Of a stretch of DNA of 64,000 nucleotides, positions 40,854 to 49,761 are shown one piece after another. A program made the position numbers and the translations under genes. The stretch comes from Streptomyces sp. SCUT-3. Lineage in GTDB: Bacteria; Actinomycetota; Actinomycetes; Streptomycetales; Streptomycetaceae. The notes under the pieces were generated by a model. It worked only from the letters and a program-made list of their open reading frames with translations. It ran no database searches and was not told the origin of the DNA. The DNA is taken from NCBI RefSeq assembly GCF_014083985.1, contig NZ_CP046907.1, positions 5,652,501-5,716,500 on the forward strand. The letters are read 5' to 3'. Position 1 is the first letter of the stretch. Every line of letters begins with the position of its first letter.

Positions 40854-42254
40854 TCAGAGGGCGACCCCGTGCTGCCGCAGGTAGGCCCTCGGGTCGATGT
40901 CGCTGCCGTAGCCCGGCCCGGTCCGGACCTCGAAGTGCAGGTGGGGGCCGGTGGAGTTGCCCGTCGAGCCGGACCGGCCGATCTGCCGTCCGCCCGTCAC
41001 CCTCTCGCCGGTGCGCACGGAGATCGAGGACAGGTGGGCGTACTGGGTGTACTTGCCGTCCGCGTGCCGCAGGACCACCTGGTAGCCGTAGGAACCTCCC
41101 CAGCCGGCGGCCACGACGGTGCCGTCGGTGACGGCGCGGACCGAGGTGCCGGTGGGCACGGCGAAGTCCTGGCCGGTGTGGTGGCCGCTGGCCCAGTGGG
41201 GCCCGGAGACCCCGTAGGCGGTGCCCGACGCGTAGCCGCTGACCGGGGCGGTCCAGCCGGAGGAGGCGGGCGCCTCCTTCGCCGCGGCGGCCTTCTGCTT
41301 CTTCTGCTGCTCGGCGGCCCTTTCTCGTTCGGCAGCCTTCTGGCGTTCTGCGGCCTCCTTCTGCTCGGCGGCCTTCTGGCGTTCGGCGGCCTTCTGCCGC
41401 TCCGCAGCCCTGTGCTGTTCGGCCGCCCTCTGCCTCTCCCGTTCCTTCCGCTGCCCGTCCTGCCGGCTCCGGGACTGCTCGGCCGGGTCGTCCGCGGCCT
41501 CCTGCCCGGCCCCGGGGGCCGCGGGGCGCTCCTGCACCTGCCGACCGGGCAGGTCCAGCCTCTGGCCGGGGACGATCAGATCGGGGTCGCCGCCCACCAC
41601 GGTGCGGTTCGCCGTGTAGAGGCGCTGCCACCCGCCGCGCACGTCGTGCTCCTCGGCGATCCCCGACAGGGTGTCGCCGGGCACCACCCGGTGGTGGCCG
41701 CGTCCGTCGCCCGCCGCGGCCGGCCCGGTGCCGTCCGTCCGTGCGGACGCCTGCCGCGCCGTCCCCGTCCGCGGGGCGGCTTCCCCCGGTTCCGACGCGG
41801 TCCTCCGCACGGTACTGCCGTCGGCCGGCCGGGTCCCGGCTCCCTGCGTCCCGGTCTCCTGCTCTCCGGCCGCCCGGTCGCGGGTCAGGCCTGCGCGTAC
41901 CGAGCACACCGGCCAGGCTCCGGGGCCCTGCGCGTCGAGGACCTTCTCGGCCACGGCCACCTGCTGGGCCCTGGTGGCCAGGTCGGCCCGGGAGGCGTGG
42001 ACGGTCCCGCCGAAGGCCTTCCAGGTGCTGGGGGTGAACTGCAGCCCGCCGAAGTGGCCGTTGCCGGTGTTGGTACTCCAGTTGCCGCTGCTCTCGCACT
42101 GGGCGACCTTGTCCCAGAGGCCCCCGGAGGCGGCGCCCGCCCCGGAGGCGGAGACCAGGGGCAGGGCCAGTCCCGCGCCACCCGCCGTCAGGACGAGCGG
42201 TAATCGGGACAGCGGGCGGGGGGTGGGGCGGCGGTGCCGTCCTGCTGGGGCCAC
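40854..42254 (-). CDS. Rpf-LysM-M23 cell-wall hydrolase
   Basis: A 466-residue secreted protein combining three wall domains. After a signal peptide (PLVLTAGGAGLALPLVSASG) comes a resuscitation-promoting-factor lytic domain (WDKVAQCESSGNWSTNTGNG, GGLQFTPSTWKAFGG), with the catalytic Glu in CESSGNW. A LysM domain follows (HHRVVPGDTLSGIAEEHDV, ending VPGQRLDLPG). A coiled-coil spacer of AERQKAAEQ repeats leads to an M23 endopeptidase ([35 protein letters not shown]), with zinc ligands HxxxD and HxH. The N-terminal glycosidase and C-terminal peptidase could open both glycan and peptide bonds. GTG at 42254 follows GAGAGGA; ATG at 42263 is too close. A paralogue lies at 48568. Confidence 0.92.
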   Translation of the reverse strand: MAPAGRHRRPTPRPLSRLPLVLTAGGAGLALPLVSASGAGAASGGLWDKVAQCESSGNWSTNTGNGHFGGLQFTPSTWKAFGGTVHASRADLATRAQQVAVAEKVLDAQGPGAWPVCSVRAGLTRDRAAGEQETGTQGAGTRPADGSTVRRTASEPGEAAPRTGTARQASARTDGTGPAAAGDGRGHHRVVPGDTLSGIAEEHDVRGGWQRLYTANRTVVGGDPDLIVPGQRLDLPGRQVQERPAAPGAGQEAADDPAEQSRSRQDGQRKERERQRAAEQHRAAERQKAAERQKAAEQKEAAERQKAAERERAAEQQKKQKAAAAKEAPASSGWTAPVSGYASGTAYGVSGPHWASGHHTGQDFAVPTGTSVRAVTDGTVVAAGWGGSYGYQVVLRHADGKYTQYAHLSSISVRTGERVTGGRQIGRSGSTGNSTGPHLHFEVRTGPGYGSDIDPRAYLRQHGVAL

Positions 42255-42578
42255 GAGGACCATTCCTCTCCGTGGGGTGGAACGCCCGGGGGGTCCCGAG
42301 GGCAGGGCAAAAGTACGGGGCGGGCTTTTCCGGCGACAAGGGCGCGGGGAGAACACCCCGCAAGTGCTGTAGGCGTGCGCCGGGGCGGCCGCGTCCGTCA
42401 ACTCGTGTGCGCAGCACCACGTTTGAATGAGATCATCGGACGGAATTGCTGTTTGATCCGCAGGCGACTGGAGAGAGTGATCATGAGGGTGTTGTGCGTG
42501 TCGGGTCCGTTCCCGGGCCGGCCGGCAGGCACGGCCCGCCCCGACCGACCGCCGCGACGGCTGACCCCAAGAGGCACC
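42255..42578. other. Divergent intergenic region (324 bp)
   Basis: This spacer holds the promoters of the Rpf-LysM-M23 gene (minus) and the 42579 gene (plus). The part 42415-42485 is AT-richer than its surroundings. An in-frame ATG at 42483 with GGAGAGAGTGATC before it could be an upstream start of the 42579 gene. The conserved ydaO riboswitch core seen before the paralogous wall hydrolase at 48568 is absent here. Confidence 0.5.
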
Positions 42579-42932
42579 GTGACCATTCTGTACCCCGACT
42601 TCACCGCCCCCTCGCGCACCAGGCGGGACTCCCTCACGCCCGAGGCCCTCGAGGTGCTGCGCGTCATCGCCGATCCGGTCCGGCCGGTCTACCTCACCCT
42701 GCCGCACACCCGTCACAACCGGCGGCGCTTCTGCTACTGGCAGCCGTACGACACCGCCACCGGCACCGGCAACCACTACAGCTCGCTGCCCCTCGCGGTG
42801 TGCGAGGAGCTCGTCGACCGCGGGCTGGTGGAGCTGGGCCCGGCCGCCAACGACCCGTCCAAGGCGACCCGCTCGGTCTCCCTCACCCCCGCGGGACGGG
42901 CCTGTCTGAGCCGGCGGGCCGTCGCCGCGTGA
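42579..42932 (+). CDS. Uncharacterised protein, 117 aa
   Basis: A 117-residue protein with Tyr- and Arg-rich core (VRPVYLTLPHTRHNRRRFCYW, QPYDTATGTGNHYSSLPLAVC) and a C-terminal part (CEELVDRGLVELG to VSLTPAGRACLSRRA) that resembles the recognition end of a winged-helix domain. Function is unknown. GTG at 42579 follows AAGAGGCACC. A longer in-frame start (ATG at 42483) is possible, but its added residues are Arg/Pro-rich and look non-coding. The methyltransferase operon begins 84 bases downstream. Confidence 0.7.
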   Translation: MTILYPDFTAPSRTRRDSLTPEALEVLRVIADPVRPVYLTLPHTRHNRRRFCYWQPYDTATGTGNHYSSLPLAVCEELVDRGLVELGPAANDPSKATRSVSLTPAGRACLSRRAVAA

Positions 42933-43015
42933 GCCGTACCGGTGCGCTCCGGCGCGCCGGTCATTACCGGGTTTCCCGCAGTTTGTCACCCCGGGGCGGG
43001 GGCAGCAGGAGCCAC

Positions 43016-43672
43016 ATGTGGCTCCTCAGACCCCCAGGCGTGTACGCACCGCAGAGCGACACCGGGACGCTCATCGACGAGCTCCTGCGCGAGCCGTCCC
43101 TGCCGGGCGCGCGGGTCCTCGACGTGGGCACCGGCAGCGGGGCCGTGGCGCTGGCAGCGGCCCGGGCCGGCGCCGCGGACGTGACCGCCGTCGACATATC
43201 CTCCAGGGCGGTGCTGGCCGCCCGCCTCAACGCCGTACTGCGCCGGGCCCGCGTCCGGGTGCTCCGCGGCGACCTGGCCCTCCCCGTCGGGCACCGGCGC
43301 TTCGAGATCATCGTCTCCAACCCGCCCTACGTCCCCTCCCCCTCCGACCGCCTGCCGCACCGCGGGCCCGCCCGGTCCTGGGCGGCCGGGCGCACCGGGC
43401 GCCTCCTGGTGGACCGGCTGTGCGCCGAGGCGCCGCCGCTGCTCGCCCCCGGCGGCGTCCTGCTGATGGTCCACTCGGGTCTGTGCGGCACGGAGAAGAC
43501 CGTGGCGCAGCTGGAGGAGGCCGGCCTGGAGGCCGAGGTCACGGCCCGCCGCACCGTTCCCTACGGGCCGGTCATGCGCCGCCTCGCCCCCTGGCTGGAG
43601 GCCGGCGGACTGGTCGAGCCGGGGCAGGAGCACGAGGAACTGGTGGTGGTCCGTGCCGTCCGCAGCCGGTGA
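43016..43672 (+). CDS. HemK2/Mtq2-type SAM-dependent methyltransferase
   Basis: A 218-residue class I methyltransferase. The SAM site is VLDVGTGSGAVALAAARAG (motif I, residues about 33-51), followed by VTAVDISSRAVLAARLNAV and the N6-methyltransferase signature NPPYVPSPSD. The short length without an N-terminal helical domain matches HemK2/Mtq2 proteins, which methylate glutamine or a related amide in proteins. The target here is unknown. ATG at 43016 follows GCAGGAGCCAC. It is the first gene of a tight operon: its 3' end overlaps the CDGSH gene by 20 bases. Confidence 0.9.
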   Translation: MWLLRPPGVYAPQSDTGTLIDELLREPSLPGARVLDVGTGSGAVALAAARAGAADVTAVDISSRAVLAARLNAVLRRARVRVLRGDLALPVGHRRFEIIVSNPPYVPSPSDRLPHRGPARSWAAGRTGRLLVDRLCAEAPPLLAPGGVLLMVHSGLCGTEKTVAQLEEAGLEAEVTARRTVPYGPVMRRLAPWLEAGGLVEPGQEHEELVVVRAVRSR

Positions 43673-43898
43673 CGCCGCGCCGCGTCGCGTGATTGTCGAC
43701 CCGCAGGGGCCACTGCTCGTCGAGGGACCGGTGGAACTCGTCCTCGAGGACGGTACGACCGCCGCCTCCGACCGCTTCATGGTCGCGGTCTGCACCTGCC
43801 GGCGCAGCCGGACCTACCCGTTCTGCGACACCAGCCACCGCCGTCGCCGCCGCCCCGGGCGCGGCCGCGACGGCGCACCGGAGGAGGGGACCCCGTGA
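43653..43898 (+). CDS. CDGSH-type iron-sulfur protein
   Basis: An 81-residue protein with one CDGSH-type site: VCTCRRSRTYPFCDTSH, giving the three Cys and one His that bind a [2Fe-2S] cluster. Such clusters are redox-active or transferable. The C-terminal tail is Arg-rich. GTG at 43653 overlaps the methyltransferase gene; GTG at 43689 is an alternative start within the frame. The stop overlaps the next start (GTGA), which points to coupled translation with the haem-oxygenase-like enzyme. An electron-transfer role for that enzyme is a reasonable inference. Confidence 0.9.
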   Translation: MPSAAGDAAPRRVIVDPQGPLLVEGPVELVLEDGTTAASDRFMVAVCTCRRSRTYPFCDTSHRRRRRPGRGRDGAPEEGTP

Positions 43899-44968
43899 CC
43901 GCACCCGCACCCGCACCCCCGGCCGCGCCCGGGCAGGCCCTCTCCGCCGTACCCGGCCTGCCCGTGCCGCGCGGTCCCCTCTCCGAGCAGCTGGTGACGG
44001 CCCTGCGCCGCCCGCCGTCCGAGGCGCCGCCCCTGCCCGGGCGCCTGCCCGCGGGCACCGACCCGCTGGGCGAGGACGCGCAGCTGGCCCTCTACGCCGC
44101 CTACGAACTGCACTACCGCTCCTTCGCCGGCGTCGCCGACTCCTGGGAGTGGGACCCCGGGCTGCTGCGGCTGCGGGCCGCCCTCGAGGAGGCATTCGGC
44201 CGGGCGCTGCGCGGCGCGGTGCCCGGCGGCGACGACGTCGACGCGGTCCTGGAACCGCTGCTGGAGGAACCCGTCGAACCCTCGGGGACCGCCCACCACC
44301 TGCAGAAGGAGGGCACCTGGGGGCAGATGCGCGAATACCTGGCGCACCGGTCCGTCTACCACCTCAAGGAGGCGGACCCGCACGCCTGGGTGATCCCCCG
44401 CCTGACCGGCCAGGCGAAGGCGTCGCTGGTGGCGGTGGAGTACGACGAGTTCGGCGGCGGCCGCGGCGATCGGGTCCACGCCCGGCTGTTCGCCGACCTG
44501 ATGGAGGGGGCCGGGCTGGACCCGGCCTACGGCCGCTACCTCGACCTCGTCCCGGCGGTGATGCTGGCCAACGTCAACCTCATGTCGTGGCTGGGGCTGC
44601 ACCGCGGGCTGCGCGGGGCCCTGGTGGGGCACTTCACGGCGGTGGAGGTCACCAGCTCCCCCGGCTCCCGCAGGCTCGCCGCGGCCCTGGACCGCCTCGG
44701 CGCGCCCCCGCAGTGCGCCCTGTTCTACACCGAGCACGTGGAGGCCGACGCCGTGCACGAGCAGGTGCTGCGCCGGGACGTCCTGGGGGACCTGCTGCGC
44801 CGGGAGCCGCAACTGGCGGCGGACGCGGTCTTCGGCGTCCAGGCCTACGGGTACCTCGAGGACCTGCTCGGCGACCACTTGGCGGCCTGCTGGCGGGCCG
44901 GCCGGACCTCCCTGCTGGCCCCGCTGCCCGAACCGACCGGCGCCCCCGGCACCCCGGACGCCGGGTAG
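43895..44968 (+). CDS. Haem-oxygenase-like (HDO-type) iron-containing redox enzyme
   Basis: A 357-residue protein of the iron-containing redox enzyme family with a haem-oxygenase-like helical fold. Possible metal ligands occur in AYELHYRSF (ExxH), VAVEYDEFGGG and the C-terminal YTEHVEADAVHEQ, a Glu/His/Asp pattern seen in non-haem diiron oxidases and oxygenases of this fold. Known relatives perform unusual oxidations such as N-oxygenation and oxidative C-C cleavage; the substrate here is unknown. The GTG start overlaps the CDGSH gene stop by four bases. The CDGSH protein may deliver electrons or clusters. Confidence 0.85.
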   Translation: MTAPAPAPPAAPGQALSAVPGLPVPRGPLSEQLVTALRRPPSEAPPLPGRLPAGTDPLGEDAQLALYAAYELHYRSFAGVADSWEWDPGLLRLRAALEEAFGRALRGAVPGGDDVDAVLEPLLEEPVEPSGTAHHLQKEGTWGQMREYLAHRSVYHLKEADPHAWVIPRLTGQAKASLVAVEYDEFGGGRGDRVHARLFADLMEGAGLDPAYGRYLDLVPAVMLANVNLMSWLGLHRGLRGALVGHFTAVEVTSSPGSRRLAAALDRLGAPPQCALFYTEHVEADAVHEQVLRRDVLGDLLRREPQLAADAVFGVQAYGYLEDLLGDHLAACWRAGRTSLLAPLPEPTGAPGTPDAG

Positions 44969-44979
44969 GGAGGGCCGCC

Positions 44980-45242
44980 GTGCCCGTGGCGCCCCGCTGC
45001 TACCGCATCACCCTCGTCCCGCCGGGGAGTGCGCGCCGCGCCCTGCCCCCGCTGTGCCTGACCGTCGCCGAGACCGGGGAGACGGGGGGCGGGAGTGGCC
45101 GCTGTACGAGGGGCGGGGCACGCAGGTGTGGATGGACACCGGCCGCCACCGGGTGGTGCGGGTCCTCGTCGAGGGCGAGACGCCCGCGGGGTACCGCCCC
45201 GTCGAGGTGCTGCCCCTGGACGAGATCCCCGGGGAGCCCTGA
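44980..45242 (+). pseudogene. Small uncharacterised ORF of about 87 aa with an apparent frameshift
   Basis: Translation from GTG at 44980 gives VPVAPRCYRITLVPPGSARR, then LTVAETGET. The matching C-terminal half is in another frame: REWPLYEGRGTQVWMDTGRH, then VVRVLVEGETPAGYRP and a stop at 45242. One additional G in the run at 45084-45089 would fuse them to a single 87-residue protein. It starts 12 bases after the haem-oxygenase-like gene and so belongs to the same operon. Function is unknown. Whether the break is real or a base-calling error cannot be decided here. Confidence 0.65.
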
Positions 45243-45305: not shown

Positions 45306-45821
45306 TCAGGGCTTCAGGTCCTGCGCGGCGTCGTCCAGGGCGGCGGTGACCCGGGCCAGGGCGCCGTGCAGTGCCGCCGCTTCCTGCCGTTCCAGCCCCG
45401 TCGCGGCCAGGACGCGCCGCGGGATCTCCGCGGCCCGCTCCCGCAGCGCCTCCCCCGACGAGGTGAGGCTCACGACCACCGAGCGCTCGTCGTGCGGGCT
45501 GCGCCCGCGCACGACCAGGCCGGCCGTCTCCAGCCGCTTGAGCAGGGGGGAGAGGGTGCCCGAGTCCAGGCGCAGGGCCCGGCCGAGCTCCTTGACCGTG
45601 GAGGAGCCGTGCTCCCACAGCACCAGCATGGCCAGGTACTGCGGGTAGGTCAGGCCCAGGTCGCCCAGGAGCCGGCGGTAGAGGGTGTCGAAGGCGCGGG
45701 AGGTCGCGTGGAGCGCGAAGCACACCTGGAGGTCCAGGCGCAGCAGGTCGCCGTGGGGGCCGAGGGGTGCCCGGTCCGCCGGTGCGCCGCCGGGCGCCGT
45801 GCCGTTCGCCGGTTCCGTCAT
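45306..45821 (-). CDS. ohrR: OhrR, MarR-family organic hydroperoxide sensor
   Basis: A 171-residue MarR-family repressor. The peroxidatic cysteine of OhrR is in LDLQVCFALHATSRAFD. The winged helix-turn-helix reads STVKELGRALRLDSGTLSPL followed by the wing VRGRSPHDERSVVVSLT. Oxidation of the cysteine by organic hydroperoxides releases the DNA. It is divergent from ohr, with a near-perfect 29-bp palindrome between the genes. ATG at 45821. A charged N-terminal extension of about 25 residues is longer than usual. Confidence 0.95.
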   Translation of the reverse strand: MTEPANGTAPGGAPADRAPLGPHGDLLRLDLQVCFALHATSRAFDTLYRRLLGDLGLTYPQYLAMLVLWEHGSSTVKELGRALRLDSGTLSPLLKRLETAGLVVRGRSPHDERSVVVSLTSSGEALRERAAEIPRRVLAATGLERQEAAALHGALARVTAALDDAAQDLKP

Positions 45822-45927: not shown

Positions 45928-46341
45928 ATGGACACGCACTACACCGCCGTCGCCACCGCCAACGGGCGCGAAGGGCGGGCCGTCTCCTCGGACGGCCGCC
46001 TCGACCTCCCCCTGGCGCCGCCCCGCGAGCTGGGCGGCTCCGGCGAGGGCACCAACCCCGAGCAGCTGTTCGCGGCCGGCTACGCCGCCTGCTTCGCCAG
46101 CGCTCTGGGAGTCGTGGCCCGCGCCGCCCGGCAGGACGTGCGCGACGTGTCGGTGACCGCGGAGGTCGGCATAGGCGGCAACGCCGAGAAGGGCTTCGGC
46201 CTGAGCGTCGTGCTGCGCGTCGAACTCCCCGAGGAGCTGCAGGGCGGGACCGGCCGCGAACTCGTCGAGCAGGCCCACCGGGTCTGCCCCTACTCCAACG
46301 CCACCCGCGGGAACATCCCGGTGGAACTCGTCGTCGAGTAG
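45928..46341 (+). CDS. ohr: Organic hydroperoxide resistance protein Ohr
   Basis: A 137-residue thiol peroxidase that reduces organic hydroperoxides. The two redox cysteines are in GYAACFASALGVVA and HRVCPYSNATRGN; the conserved Arg is in the N-terminal half (ATANGREGRAVSSDG). Ohr works as a dimer and usually draws electrons from lipoylated proteins. ATG at 45928 follows GCAGGAGGCACCC. It is controlled by the divergent OhrR. Confidence 0.97.
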   Translation: MDTHYTAVATANGREGRAVSSDGRLDLPLAPPRELGGSGEGTNPEQLFAAGYAACFASALGVVARAARQDVRDVSVTAEVGIGGNAEKGFGLSVVLRVELPEELQGGTGRELVEQAHRVCPYSNATRGNIPVELVVE

Positions 46342-46501
46342 TCCCCCGAGCAGTCCCCGCCGCCGCGGAGGAGCGCGGGAGGGGCGGCCCCCGCCCCTGC
46401 TCCCCCGCGGCTCCTCCCCGCGGCTTCCCCTCGCCCGGGCACGGGCGGCCGGACACGGGCGGCCGGGCATCATGGCGCGGGTTCGGGGAAGGCGCGCCGC
46501 C

Positions 46502-48055
46502 ATGACTGATCCGCCCGACGAAGGCTCGTACTGGACGCGGACGGCCACCGCACCCCGGCGCCCCGCGCTCGCCGAGGACACCTGCGCCGACGTGGTCGTC
46601 GTCGGCGGCGGCATCGCGGGCATCTGCACCGCCCGCGAACTGGCCCTCGCCGGACGCGACGTCGTCCTGGTCGAGGCGGCCGGGCTCGCGGGCGGGGTGA
46701 CCGGGCACACCACGGCCAAGGTCAGCGCCCTGCACACCCTGCTCCACTCGCGGATCGAGAGGACCCGGGGCCCCCGCGCCGCAGGACTGTACGCGCGCTC
46801 CCAGCAGGAGGCGGTCGAGCACGTCGCCCGCACGTGCGAGCGGCTGGGCATCGACTGCGACCTGGAGCGCGCCCCCTCCTTCACCTGGGCCGAGTCCGCG
46901 CGGACGCTCGGGAAGCTGCGTGCGGAGGCGGAGGCGGCCCGGCGCGCGGGGCTGCCCGCCTCCCTGGTCGACACCACGGGCCTGCCCTTTCCCGTCGCGG
47001 GGGCGGTCCGGGTCGAGGACCAGTTGCAGTTCCACCCGCGCAAGTACCTGCTCGCGCTGGCCGACGACCTCGTCGCGCACGGGGGCCGGATCTTCGAGGA
47101 CACCCGGGTCACCGGCGTGGACGGCGGTTCCCCCTGCCTGGTGCGCACAGGGGACGGCCCCCGGATCACGGCCGGGCACGTGGTCGTGGCCACGCACTAC
47201 CCCGTGCTCGACCGGGCCCTCCTCTTTCCCCGCCTCGAGCCCCACCGCGAGCTGGTCCTGGCCGCGGAGATCCCGGAGGAGGAGGACCCGAAGGGGATGT
47301 ACATCACCCCGGAGGGCGGCACCCGGTCGGTGCGCACCGCCCCCCTCCGGGACGGTCGGCGCCTGCTGATCGTCACCGGCGAGGGCTTCCTGCCCGGCGC
47401 GGGGGGAGTGGAGGAGCGCCACCGGCGCCTGGCGGCCTGGACGCGGGAGCGCTTCCCCTCCGCGCGGCCCCTGTACCGCTGGGCCGCCCAGGACAACAGC
47501 ACCACCGACCGGCTGCCGTTCGTCGGGCCCGTGCATCCGGGGGTGCGCAACATCTACGTGGCCACCGGCTTCGGCGGGTGGGGCATGAGCAACGGGGTGA
47601 TGGCCTCCCGGCTGCTCGCCGAACTGCTGACGGGCGGCTCCGCCCCGTGGGCCGGCCTGTACCACCCGCGCCGGCTCCGCCCGCTGCGCGAGGCCCCGGC
47701 CGCGGCGAGGATCCAGGCGACCGTCGCCCGCCACTTCGTCGGGGACCGGCTGGGTGCGGAGTCCGGGCTCCGCGCGGAGGAGCCGGCGCCGGGGGAGGGT
47801 GCGGTCGTCCGGCAGGGGGGCCGGCACTGCGCGGTCTACCGGGACGACGACGGCGAGCTGCGCACCGTGGCCGCGCGGTGCACCCACATGGGGTGCCTGG
47901 TGCGGTTCAACGATGCCGAGCGCACCTGGGAGTGCCCCTGCCACGGGTCGCGGTTCGGCGTCGACGGGTCCGTGCTCCAGGGCCCGGCCACCCGGCCCCT
48001 GGAAAAGTATTCGGTTCCTGAAGCCGGCGAAACGCATAGCGAGAAACGGACATAA
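46502..48055 (+). CDS. FAD-dependent oxidoreductase with C-terminal Rieske domain
   Basis: A 517-residue two-domain enzyme. The N-terminal DAO-type FAD domain begins VVVVGGGIAGICTARELALA, with TGHTTAKVSALHTLLHSRIE and later FVGPVHPGVRNIYVATGFGG. The C-terminal Rieske [2Fe-2S] domain (residues about 440-510) carries CTHMGCLV and CPCHGSRF, giving the two-Cys, two-His ligands. Proteins with this order are found in many bacteria and are related to glycine/sarcosine oxidases, but the substrate is not established. No signal peptide is seen. The upstream spacer holds repeats of GGACACGGGCGGCCGG type. Confidence 0.92.
   Translation: MTDPPDEGSYWTRTATAPRRPALAEDTCADVVVVGGGIAGICTARELALAGRDVVLVEAAGLAGGVTGHTTAKVSALHTLLHSRIERTRGPRAAGLYARSQQEAVEHVARTCERLGIDCDLERAPSFTWAESARTLGKLRAEAEAARRAGLPASLVDTTGLPFPVAGAVRVEDQLQFHPRKYLLALADDLVAHGGRIFEDTRVTGVDGGSPCLVRTGDGPRITAGHVVVATHYPVLDRALLFPRLEPHRELVLAAEIPEEEDPKGMYITPEGGTRSVRTAPLRDGRRLLIVTGEGFLPGAGGVEERHRRLAAWTRERFPSARPLYRWAAQDNSTTDRLPFVGPVHPGVRNIYVATGFGGWGMSNGVMASRLLAELLTGGSAPWAGLYHPRRLRPLREAPAAARIQATVARHFVGDRLGAESGLRAEEPAPGEGAVVRQGGRHCAVYRDDDGELRTVAARCTHMGCLVRFNDAERTWECPCHGSRFGVDGSVLQGPATRPLEKYSVPEAGETHSEKRT

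Positions 48056-48350: not shown

Positions 48351-49761
<1,411 letters not shown>

Follow-up and report, generated by a model that had tools for sequence, protein, structure and literature searches.

Introduction

Diiron oxygenases need electrons. In the case of haem-oxygenase-like diiron enzymes (HDOs), the electrons can be taken from chemical mediators in vitro, and the mangotoxin enzymes MboA and MboB have been described as what may be the first case of an HDO that has a dedicated redox partner (PMC13185094). The 3H/4C class of HDOs was described from another member, the streptozotocin N-oxygenase SznF (review PMC13108848). Here, we analyse an HDO gene in a stretch of 64,000 nucleotides from Streptomyces sp. 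SCUT-3 (contig NZ_CP046907.1, positions 5,652,501 to 5,716,500 of the forward strand), which is called the window below. The HDO gene overlaps a preceding gene for a CDGSH-type [2Fe-2S] protein, which in turn overlaps a gene for a methyltransferase (MT) of the HemK2/MTQ2 family. This CDGSH protein is an obvious candidate for a redox partner of the HDO.

The three genes are a real unit, the linkage of which is far beyond chance, with HDO and CDGSH as its core and MT as a common third member. HDO and CDGSH stay together across the phylum, and in mycobacteria they do so with stress-type promoters. We tentatively favour the reading, held at somewhat less than even confidence, that the trio is a general-stress oxidation module in which an N-oxygenase-type HDO, reduced by the CDGSH protein, acts on a substrate of amino-acid- or guanidine-like character. 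If this is true, it would provide an example of a CDGSH-driven oxygenase and would show an HDO at work in the general stress response instead of specialised metabolism; bacterial CDGSH proteins would gain a defined job, and SigF-dependent genes annotated as 'conserved hypothetical' would become directly testable. The general-stress context and the closeness to N-oxygenases are points absent from an earlier, sequence-only reading of the window, which had singled out this gene set as a compact four-gene operon.

Linkage of the three genes across genomes

The family sample consists of 101 genomes of the bacterial family to which the window belongs, its own genome included. HDO orthologues amount to 85 genes in 80 of these genomes, and a CDGSH gene lies within 5 kb of 83 of the 85 and an MT gene within 5 kb of 74, which backs the functional unit that the sequence-only reading had deduced from the gene overlaps. 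This count omits the second fragments of two split HDO genes (G081, G073) and weak HDO matches in six genomes (G063, G041, G005, G061, G008, G100). With a threshold of E ≤ 1e-30 for MT, HDO and MT are both present in 74 genomes, HDO only in 6, MT only in 1 and neither in 20 (Fisher p 7e-15, ignoring kinship); in three of the six genomes with HDO only (G007, G080, G098), the locus does contain an MT match, but a partial or weaker one.

At E ≤ 1e-20, HDO is found in 198 of 394 genomes of a class-level sample and in 50 of 296 genomes of a phylum-level sample, the two samples overlapping. A set of 100 loci was fetched: 41 belong to the family, the window being one of them, and 59 come from the class- and phylum-level samples; L130, which was fetched at a guessed place and contains no HDO, is left out of the locus counts. 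In 87 of the 100 loci, CDGSH is no more than 5 kb away from HDO (41/41 in the family, 46/59 in the wider samples); for MT the number is 56 (38/41 and 18/59, the wider L124 being a weak match). In 75 of 80 mycobacterial loci, CDGSH and MT come after HDO in convergent orientation, and the remaining five (L183, L205, L213, L216 and L220, the last of which ends right after HDO) are without both.

The placement of the three genes varies: all three may stand in a row, HDO may come first, or the genes may be convergent. When absence is treated as one of the states, the placement of CDGSH requires 25 parsimony changes on an HDO tree of 92 tips, as against 46 for shuffled labels. That the placement keeps changing, yet the linkage persists, argues more strongly for a common task than an invariant order would. 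Where the sequence-only reading looked to conservation of the gene order across actinobacteria, it is thus proximity that is kept, whereas the order itself varies.

No fusion of HDO with CDGSH was seen, although no systematic search for one was made, and the long CDGSH proteins inspected carry other domains. Three of these from the same bacterial family (L232, L234, L237) have two CDGSH domains and, as judged by eye, a truncated globin-like part, so that CDGSH would be tied there to another oxygen-binding protein. Three other loci (L233, L235, L236) encode double-CDGSH proteins, the linker of which resembles, as judged by eye, a divergent segment of ferredoxin type. In six distant loci (L107, L109, L111, L113, L120, L136), a glycosyltransferase-like gene (by eye) lies between HDO and CDGSH.

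Predicted fold and ligands of the HDO

The HDO of the window matches PF14518 (Haem_oxygenas_2) with an E-value of 2.5e-58; this is the only domain found in its 357 residues, and no cupin domain is among them. Its structure, predicted from a 43-sequence alignment, has a predicted local distance difference test score (pLDDT) of 88.5 and a predicted template-modelling score of 0.88. Comparison by VIA-align 2 places the model closest to HrmI (Z 29.5), followed by SznF (25.3), RohS (24.1), 3bjd (23.0) and FlcD (22.5), with CADD (20.6) and UndA and BesC (both 17.5) lower. The top three by Foldseek are likewise HrmI, SznF and RohS, and HrmI is also the best sequence match in PDB. The haem-oxygenase fold is supported by the fact that HDO structures top both structure comparisons; a shared fold is no proof of N-oxygenation.

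In the sequence alignment of the HDO with SznF, residue numbers differ by +30 throughout, and there are no gaps at the ligands. E159 aligns to SznF E189, which we take to be the seventh metal ligand, and E185, H195, E251, H281, D285 and H288 align to SznF E215, H225, E281, H311, D315 and H318, of which E281 is presumably the extra carboxylate ligand. Alanine changes at each of the latter six SznF residues abolish activity, and the metal-binding role of E281 itself comes from the same study (PMC11705231). The 3His/3carboxylate set (E159/E185/H195/H281/D285/H288) is complete in the HDO, and E251 is taken, from this alignment, as the putative fourth carboxylate of the SznF-type 3H/4C class. All seven are invariant in an alignment of 92 HDO sequences, window included (eight of 100, namely L131, L037, L097, L098, L050, L120, L121 and L125, failed a filter on length and stop codons). 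Beyond the metal ligands, D161, R169 and E85 are invariant in 92/92 too, as would be expected for a specific pocket, in which their placement is putative. The iron-enzyme fold that had been recognised from the sequence therefore stands, given the confident model and the presence and invariance of all SznF ligands. Neither of the two outcomes that would have refuted the sequence-only reading has come about. A second, distant match to PF14518 over the cut-off is present elsewhere in the same genome (G000:C1:3644151-3644660, L244; E 2e-11).

Stress-type promoters and genomic context

In mycobacteria, a SigF-type box, GTTT-N14-17-GGG[ATC]A, is present upstream of MT in 74 of 75 cases, compared with 4.4% of control stretches, and upstream of HDO in 51 of 80, compared with 3.0% of controls; upstream of CDGSH, the second gene, it is present in 1 of 75. 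The M. smegmatis genes MSMEG_1771 ('methylase, putative'), MSMEG_1772 and MSMEG_1773, which are very probably the trio, are strongly SigF-dependent (PMC4694148, Table 1; PMC5445863, appendix). The tabulated fold changes are -6.17/-5.69, -5.91/-6.43 and -5.98/-4.09, respectively, and SigF promoters are given for MSMEG_1771 and MSMEG_1773 (PMC4694148, PMC5445863). Within the family of the window, the pattern GNNT-N14-17-GGGTAY, one of several motif variants tried there, occurs upstream of 5 of 41 HDO genes, compared with 2.1% of controls. For the GTTT-N15-GGGCA box in the window itself (Table 1), the G-rich context raises the odds of a chance occurrence, and stricter promoter patterns found nothing in 42400-43020.

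Three plasmid copies also stand in a stress-type setting: one (L249) lies between two SigB/SigF/SigG genes, another (L247) adjoins a gas-vesicle cluster, and a third (L248) adjoins SpoIIE/STAS/CsbD genes. Of the 100 fetched loci, 13 contain sigma-B-like genes and 8 contain a gas-vesicle gene.

Neighbouring genes

A carboxylate-amine ligase of the YbdK type (GCS2) is encoded in 20 of the 100 fetched loci, in 10 of them immediately upstream and in the same orientation. Nine of the 100 have a dimethylargininase gene, which in every case directly precedes HDO; both are named in L248. The substrate of SznF is a methylated arginine, and mangotoxin synthesis involves an HDO together with ligases and an arginine deiminase. 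Taken together, these neighbours and parallels point weakly towards an arginine- or amino-acid-derived substrate.

Downstream of the unit in the window, a gene at 46472-48055 (+) encodes a flavin adenine dinucleotide (FAD) oxidoreductase fused to a Rieske domain. Since relatives of it stand directly before HDO in L037 and L039 (with a partial match further upstream in L036), this FAD/Rieske protein may be another redox partner. Nearer to the unit are a MarR-family gene at 45306-45821 (-), the best NCBIfam match of which is an OhrR model, below cut-off, and, divergent from it, an Ohr-family peroxiredoxin gene at 45928-46341 (+); such a pair is near the unit in only one (L052) of 99 related loci. 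Genes for proteins that look by eye LysM-like and M23-peptidase-like flank the region at 40854-42224 (-) and 48568-49761 (+).

Organization of the unit in the window

Table 1. Features of the unit in the window (positions are those of the window)
Feature	Position	Strand	Remarks
HemK2/MTQ2-family methyltransferase (MT)	43016..43672	+	218 amino acids; S-adenosylmethionine-type and NPPY motifs
CDGSH-type [2Fe-2S] protein	43653..43898	+	81 amino acids; ligand motif CTCRRSRTYPFCDTSH, CDTSH form
Haem-oxygenase-like diiron enzyme (HDO)	43895..44968	+	357 amino acids; predicted ligands E159, E185, H195, E251, H281, D285, H288
Candidate sigma-B/SigF-type promoter box GTTT-N15-GGGCA	42981..43004	+	11 bases 5' of the MT start codon; weak alone

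MT and CDGSH overlap by 20 bases and CDGSH and HDO by 4 (GTGA), as had been read from the sequence before, and third-position GC is 0.95, 0.87 and 0.96 for MT, CDGSH and HDO. The identities assigned earlier to the three proteins agree with their matches to TIGR00537, PF09360 and PF14518. MT scores 110.5 bits with TIGR00537 (NCBIfam), the cut-off of which is 87, and its sequence matches among PDB structures are N6AMT1/HemK; an NPPY-type motif is found in 52 of 53 MT matches (window included) and in 75 of 75 mycobacterial ones. Identification as the release-factor methyltransferase PrmC was rejected, as the score with TIGR03534 (99.7 bits) is far under the cut-off of 199.1. The CDGSH protein matches PF09360 (zf-CDGSH; 64.8 bits, E 8.5e-18) and is alone in its genome in doing so at E ≤ 0.001. 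The full motif C-X-C-X2-S/T-X3-P-X-C-D-X-S/T/A-H is present in 83 of 86 aligned CDGSH sequences, that of the window included, and 51 of the 86 have the CDTSH form. A single-sequence model of the CDGSH protein has a pLDDT of only 53.6, too low for a judgement on the dimeric [2Fe-2S] fold of the family.

Of the four-gene operon proposed before, the trio stands; the fourth "small protein" does not. The gap before it is 11 bases rather than 12, and from GTG at 44980 to 45242 there are 263 nucleotides, which is not a multiple of 3. A GC pattern of coding type runs in the frame of 44980 as far as about 45084, with 0.97 at third positions; from about 45090 onwards it is a different frame that shows such a pattern (0.98), and a G run adjoins. 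The frame of the second half has no match in 20 other genomes, and searches of 99 related and 80 mycobacterial loci gave no match at E ≤ 1e-3 for either half. The segment may thus be a frame-broken open reading frame (ORF) or pseudogene, may reflect an indel in the sequence, or may not be a gene at all, and it was rejected as a member of the unit.

Upstream, an ORF at 42483-42932 (+) is probably a real gene, judging from its third-position GC of 0.92. It has no match in Pfam or NCBIfam, nor any in the 99 related loci or the 80 mycobacterial loci; relatives occur in 3 of 20 other genomes, away from the HDO places there. It was therefore rejected as a conserved member of the unit, and a string, TILYPD, common to it and one mycobacterial MT was set aside as an apparent coincidence.

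Proposed role and alternative explanations

An outline of the proposed process is as follows: under a sigma factor of the sigma-B/SigF type, the cell would make an HDO of the N-oxygenase branch and a dedicated CDGSH [2Fe-2S] protein. The latter would reduce, or rereduce, the diferric site of the HDO, and O2 would bind to the reduced enzyme to give a peroxodiferric species. This species would then oxidise a small substrate of amino-acid or guanidine type, most likely at nitrogen. MT, where present, would methylate either the product or one of the system's proteins. Stress control of this kind might apply in the genome of the window as well. A role of CDGSH as electron donor to the HDO is plausible and is strengthened by the constant co-location of their genes. 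A broader version, which we consider doubtful, is a widespread actinobacterial stress pathway in which a CDGSH-fed diiron HDO of N-oxygenase type, joined by YbdK and dimethylargininase in some lineages, would make an N-oxygenated stress metabolite derived from arginine or another amino acid.

Several points weigh against the proposed oxidation module. HrmI, the best structural match, is classed as 3H/3C (review PMC13108848), and most loci are without YbdK or dimethylargininase. In 13 of the 59 wider loci, no CDGSH was found by tblastn or profile, and these, together with the five mycobacterial loci without CDGSH and MT, suggest that some HDOs work without neighbouring partners. The three M. 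smegmatis genes were identified with the trio from annotation, order and promoter placement, not from sequence; a published MSMEG 32-mer was found in none of 248 genomes of the genus and had no match in a contig search. MSMEG_1773 protein is raised in a pafBC mutant, so other control exists. The promoter figures of the family, which are not clean tests because several motif variants were tried, are modest: the GTTT box is present upstream of 8 of 36 MT genes (window included; 3.1% of controls) and of none of 41 HDO genes, and two other motif forms are each present upstream of 4 of 36 MT genes (3.7% and 5.0% of controls, p 0.10 for the latter).

The chief rival, which we regard as unlikely, takes the HDO-CDGSH pair as a peroxide or oxygen reductase. 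The two proteins would share the work as in rubrerythrin, though on the scaffold of an HDO, and would protect cells that are resting or dried; no organic substrate would be involved, and MT would be an independent stress gene. The Acinetobacter HDO DtpC, which is co-transcribed with the catalase KatE, restricts H2O2 levels in dried cells and requires E143, H153 and H232 (PMC13232832), but its likeness to the present HDO is by description, not by sequence. M. smegmatis sigF mutants are H2O2-sensitive, yet this has been ascribed to carotenoid loss (PMC4694148). MSMEG_1771-1773 are also among the genes tabulated in a study of spray-drying, a Mn-catalase gene is present in 5 of the 100 fetched loci, and the MarR/OhrR-like and Ohr genes just downstream in the window, as well as the long family proteins in which CDGSH seems to be joined to a globin-like part, would fit a peroxide- or oxygen-reducing role. 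However, the nearest structures are N-oxygenases with organic substrates, the invariance of D161, R169 and E85 is as for a specific pocket, and the YbdK and dimethylargininase neighbours suggest a metabolite.

It is also conceivable, though in our judgement improbable, that the CDGSH protein is an iron-sulphur or iron donor, or a sensor, which loads or guards a labile diiron site rather than supplying electrons for catalysis. Cluster transfer is a property of CDGSH proteins of the mitoNEET type. HDO clusters are often labile, with a flexible core helix 3, and the HDOs studied so far need no protein effector (review PMC13108848); nevertheless, an HDO with a dedicated Fe2S2-containing redox partner, MboA/MboB, is now reported (PMC13185094), and a general repair factor would not need to adjoin one enzyme through many rearrangements. 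Those rearrangements, which the linkage outlives, also weigh against the very improbable explanation that the trio is co-located only as part of a stress-regulon 'island', its members being unrelated in function. Other stress genes do cluster nearby, and MT is absent from 44 of the 100 loci. Yet a 13-kb stretch of a Curtobacterium plasmid has HDO and CDGSH without such stress genes, and every other real neighbour is confined to about a fifth of the loci or fewer.

Comparison with known systems

Each of the three proteins belongs to a known family, and the pairing of HDO with CDGSH in a stress context appears to be new as far as our literature searches show. They yielded no paper joining CDGSH with HDO, HemK2, N-oxygenase or dimethylargininase within a coverage outside which most subscription papers fall. 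In publications on CDGSH in Streptomyces or M. smegmatis, titles and abstract openings do not describe the trio. The statement of the sequence-only reading that it knew of no described pathway with this set is thus in line with the literature searched.

Rubrerythrin-type diiron peroxidases resemble the pair in combining a diiron site with an iron-centred electron donor, but they have a ferritin-like fold and a fused rubredoxin, as against an HDO fold and a separate CDGSH protein here. SznF shares the HDO fold (302 residues aligned by VIA-align 2, 22% identity) and ligands that align gap-free. It has, however, an extra C-terminal cupin domain and acts in a natural-product pathway, whereas the HDO of the window has PF14518 only and lies beside CDGSH, and control of a stress type is seen in relatives. 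HrmI, a lysine N6-oxygenase, is the top structural match over 306 residues, but the identity is 19%. It is a natural-product enzyme, and one placed in a different ligand class, as mentioned above. DtpC is likewise an HDO tied to drying and oxidative stress (PMC13232832), but its partner is a catalase, and the term 'CDGSH' is absent from that paper, the comparison being by description only.

MboA/MboB of mangotoxin synthesis provides an HDO together with an Fe2S2-containing partner, and its MboE arginine deiminase and amino-acid ligases recall the dimethylargininase and YbdK encoded beside some of the HDOs. Nevertheless, MboB is a flavin/NAD(P)H/Fe2S2 reductase, whereas the 81-residue partner in the window has PF09360 only; MboA is a 3H/3C desaturase, and MboC and MboD are ATP-grasp ligases, whereas YbdK belongs to GCS2.

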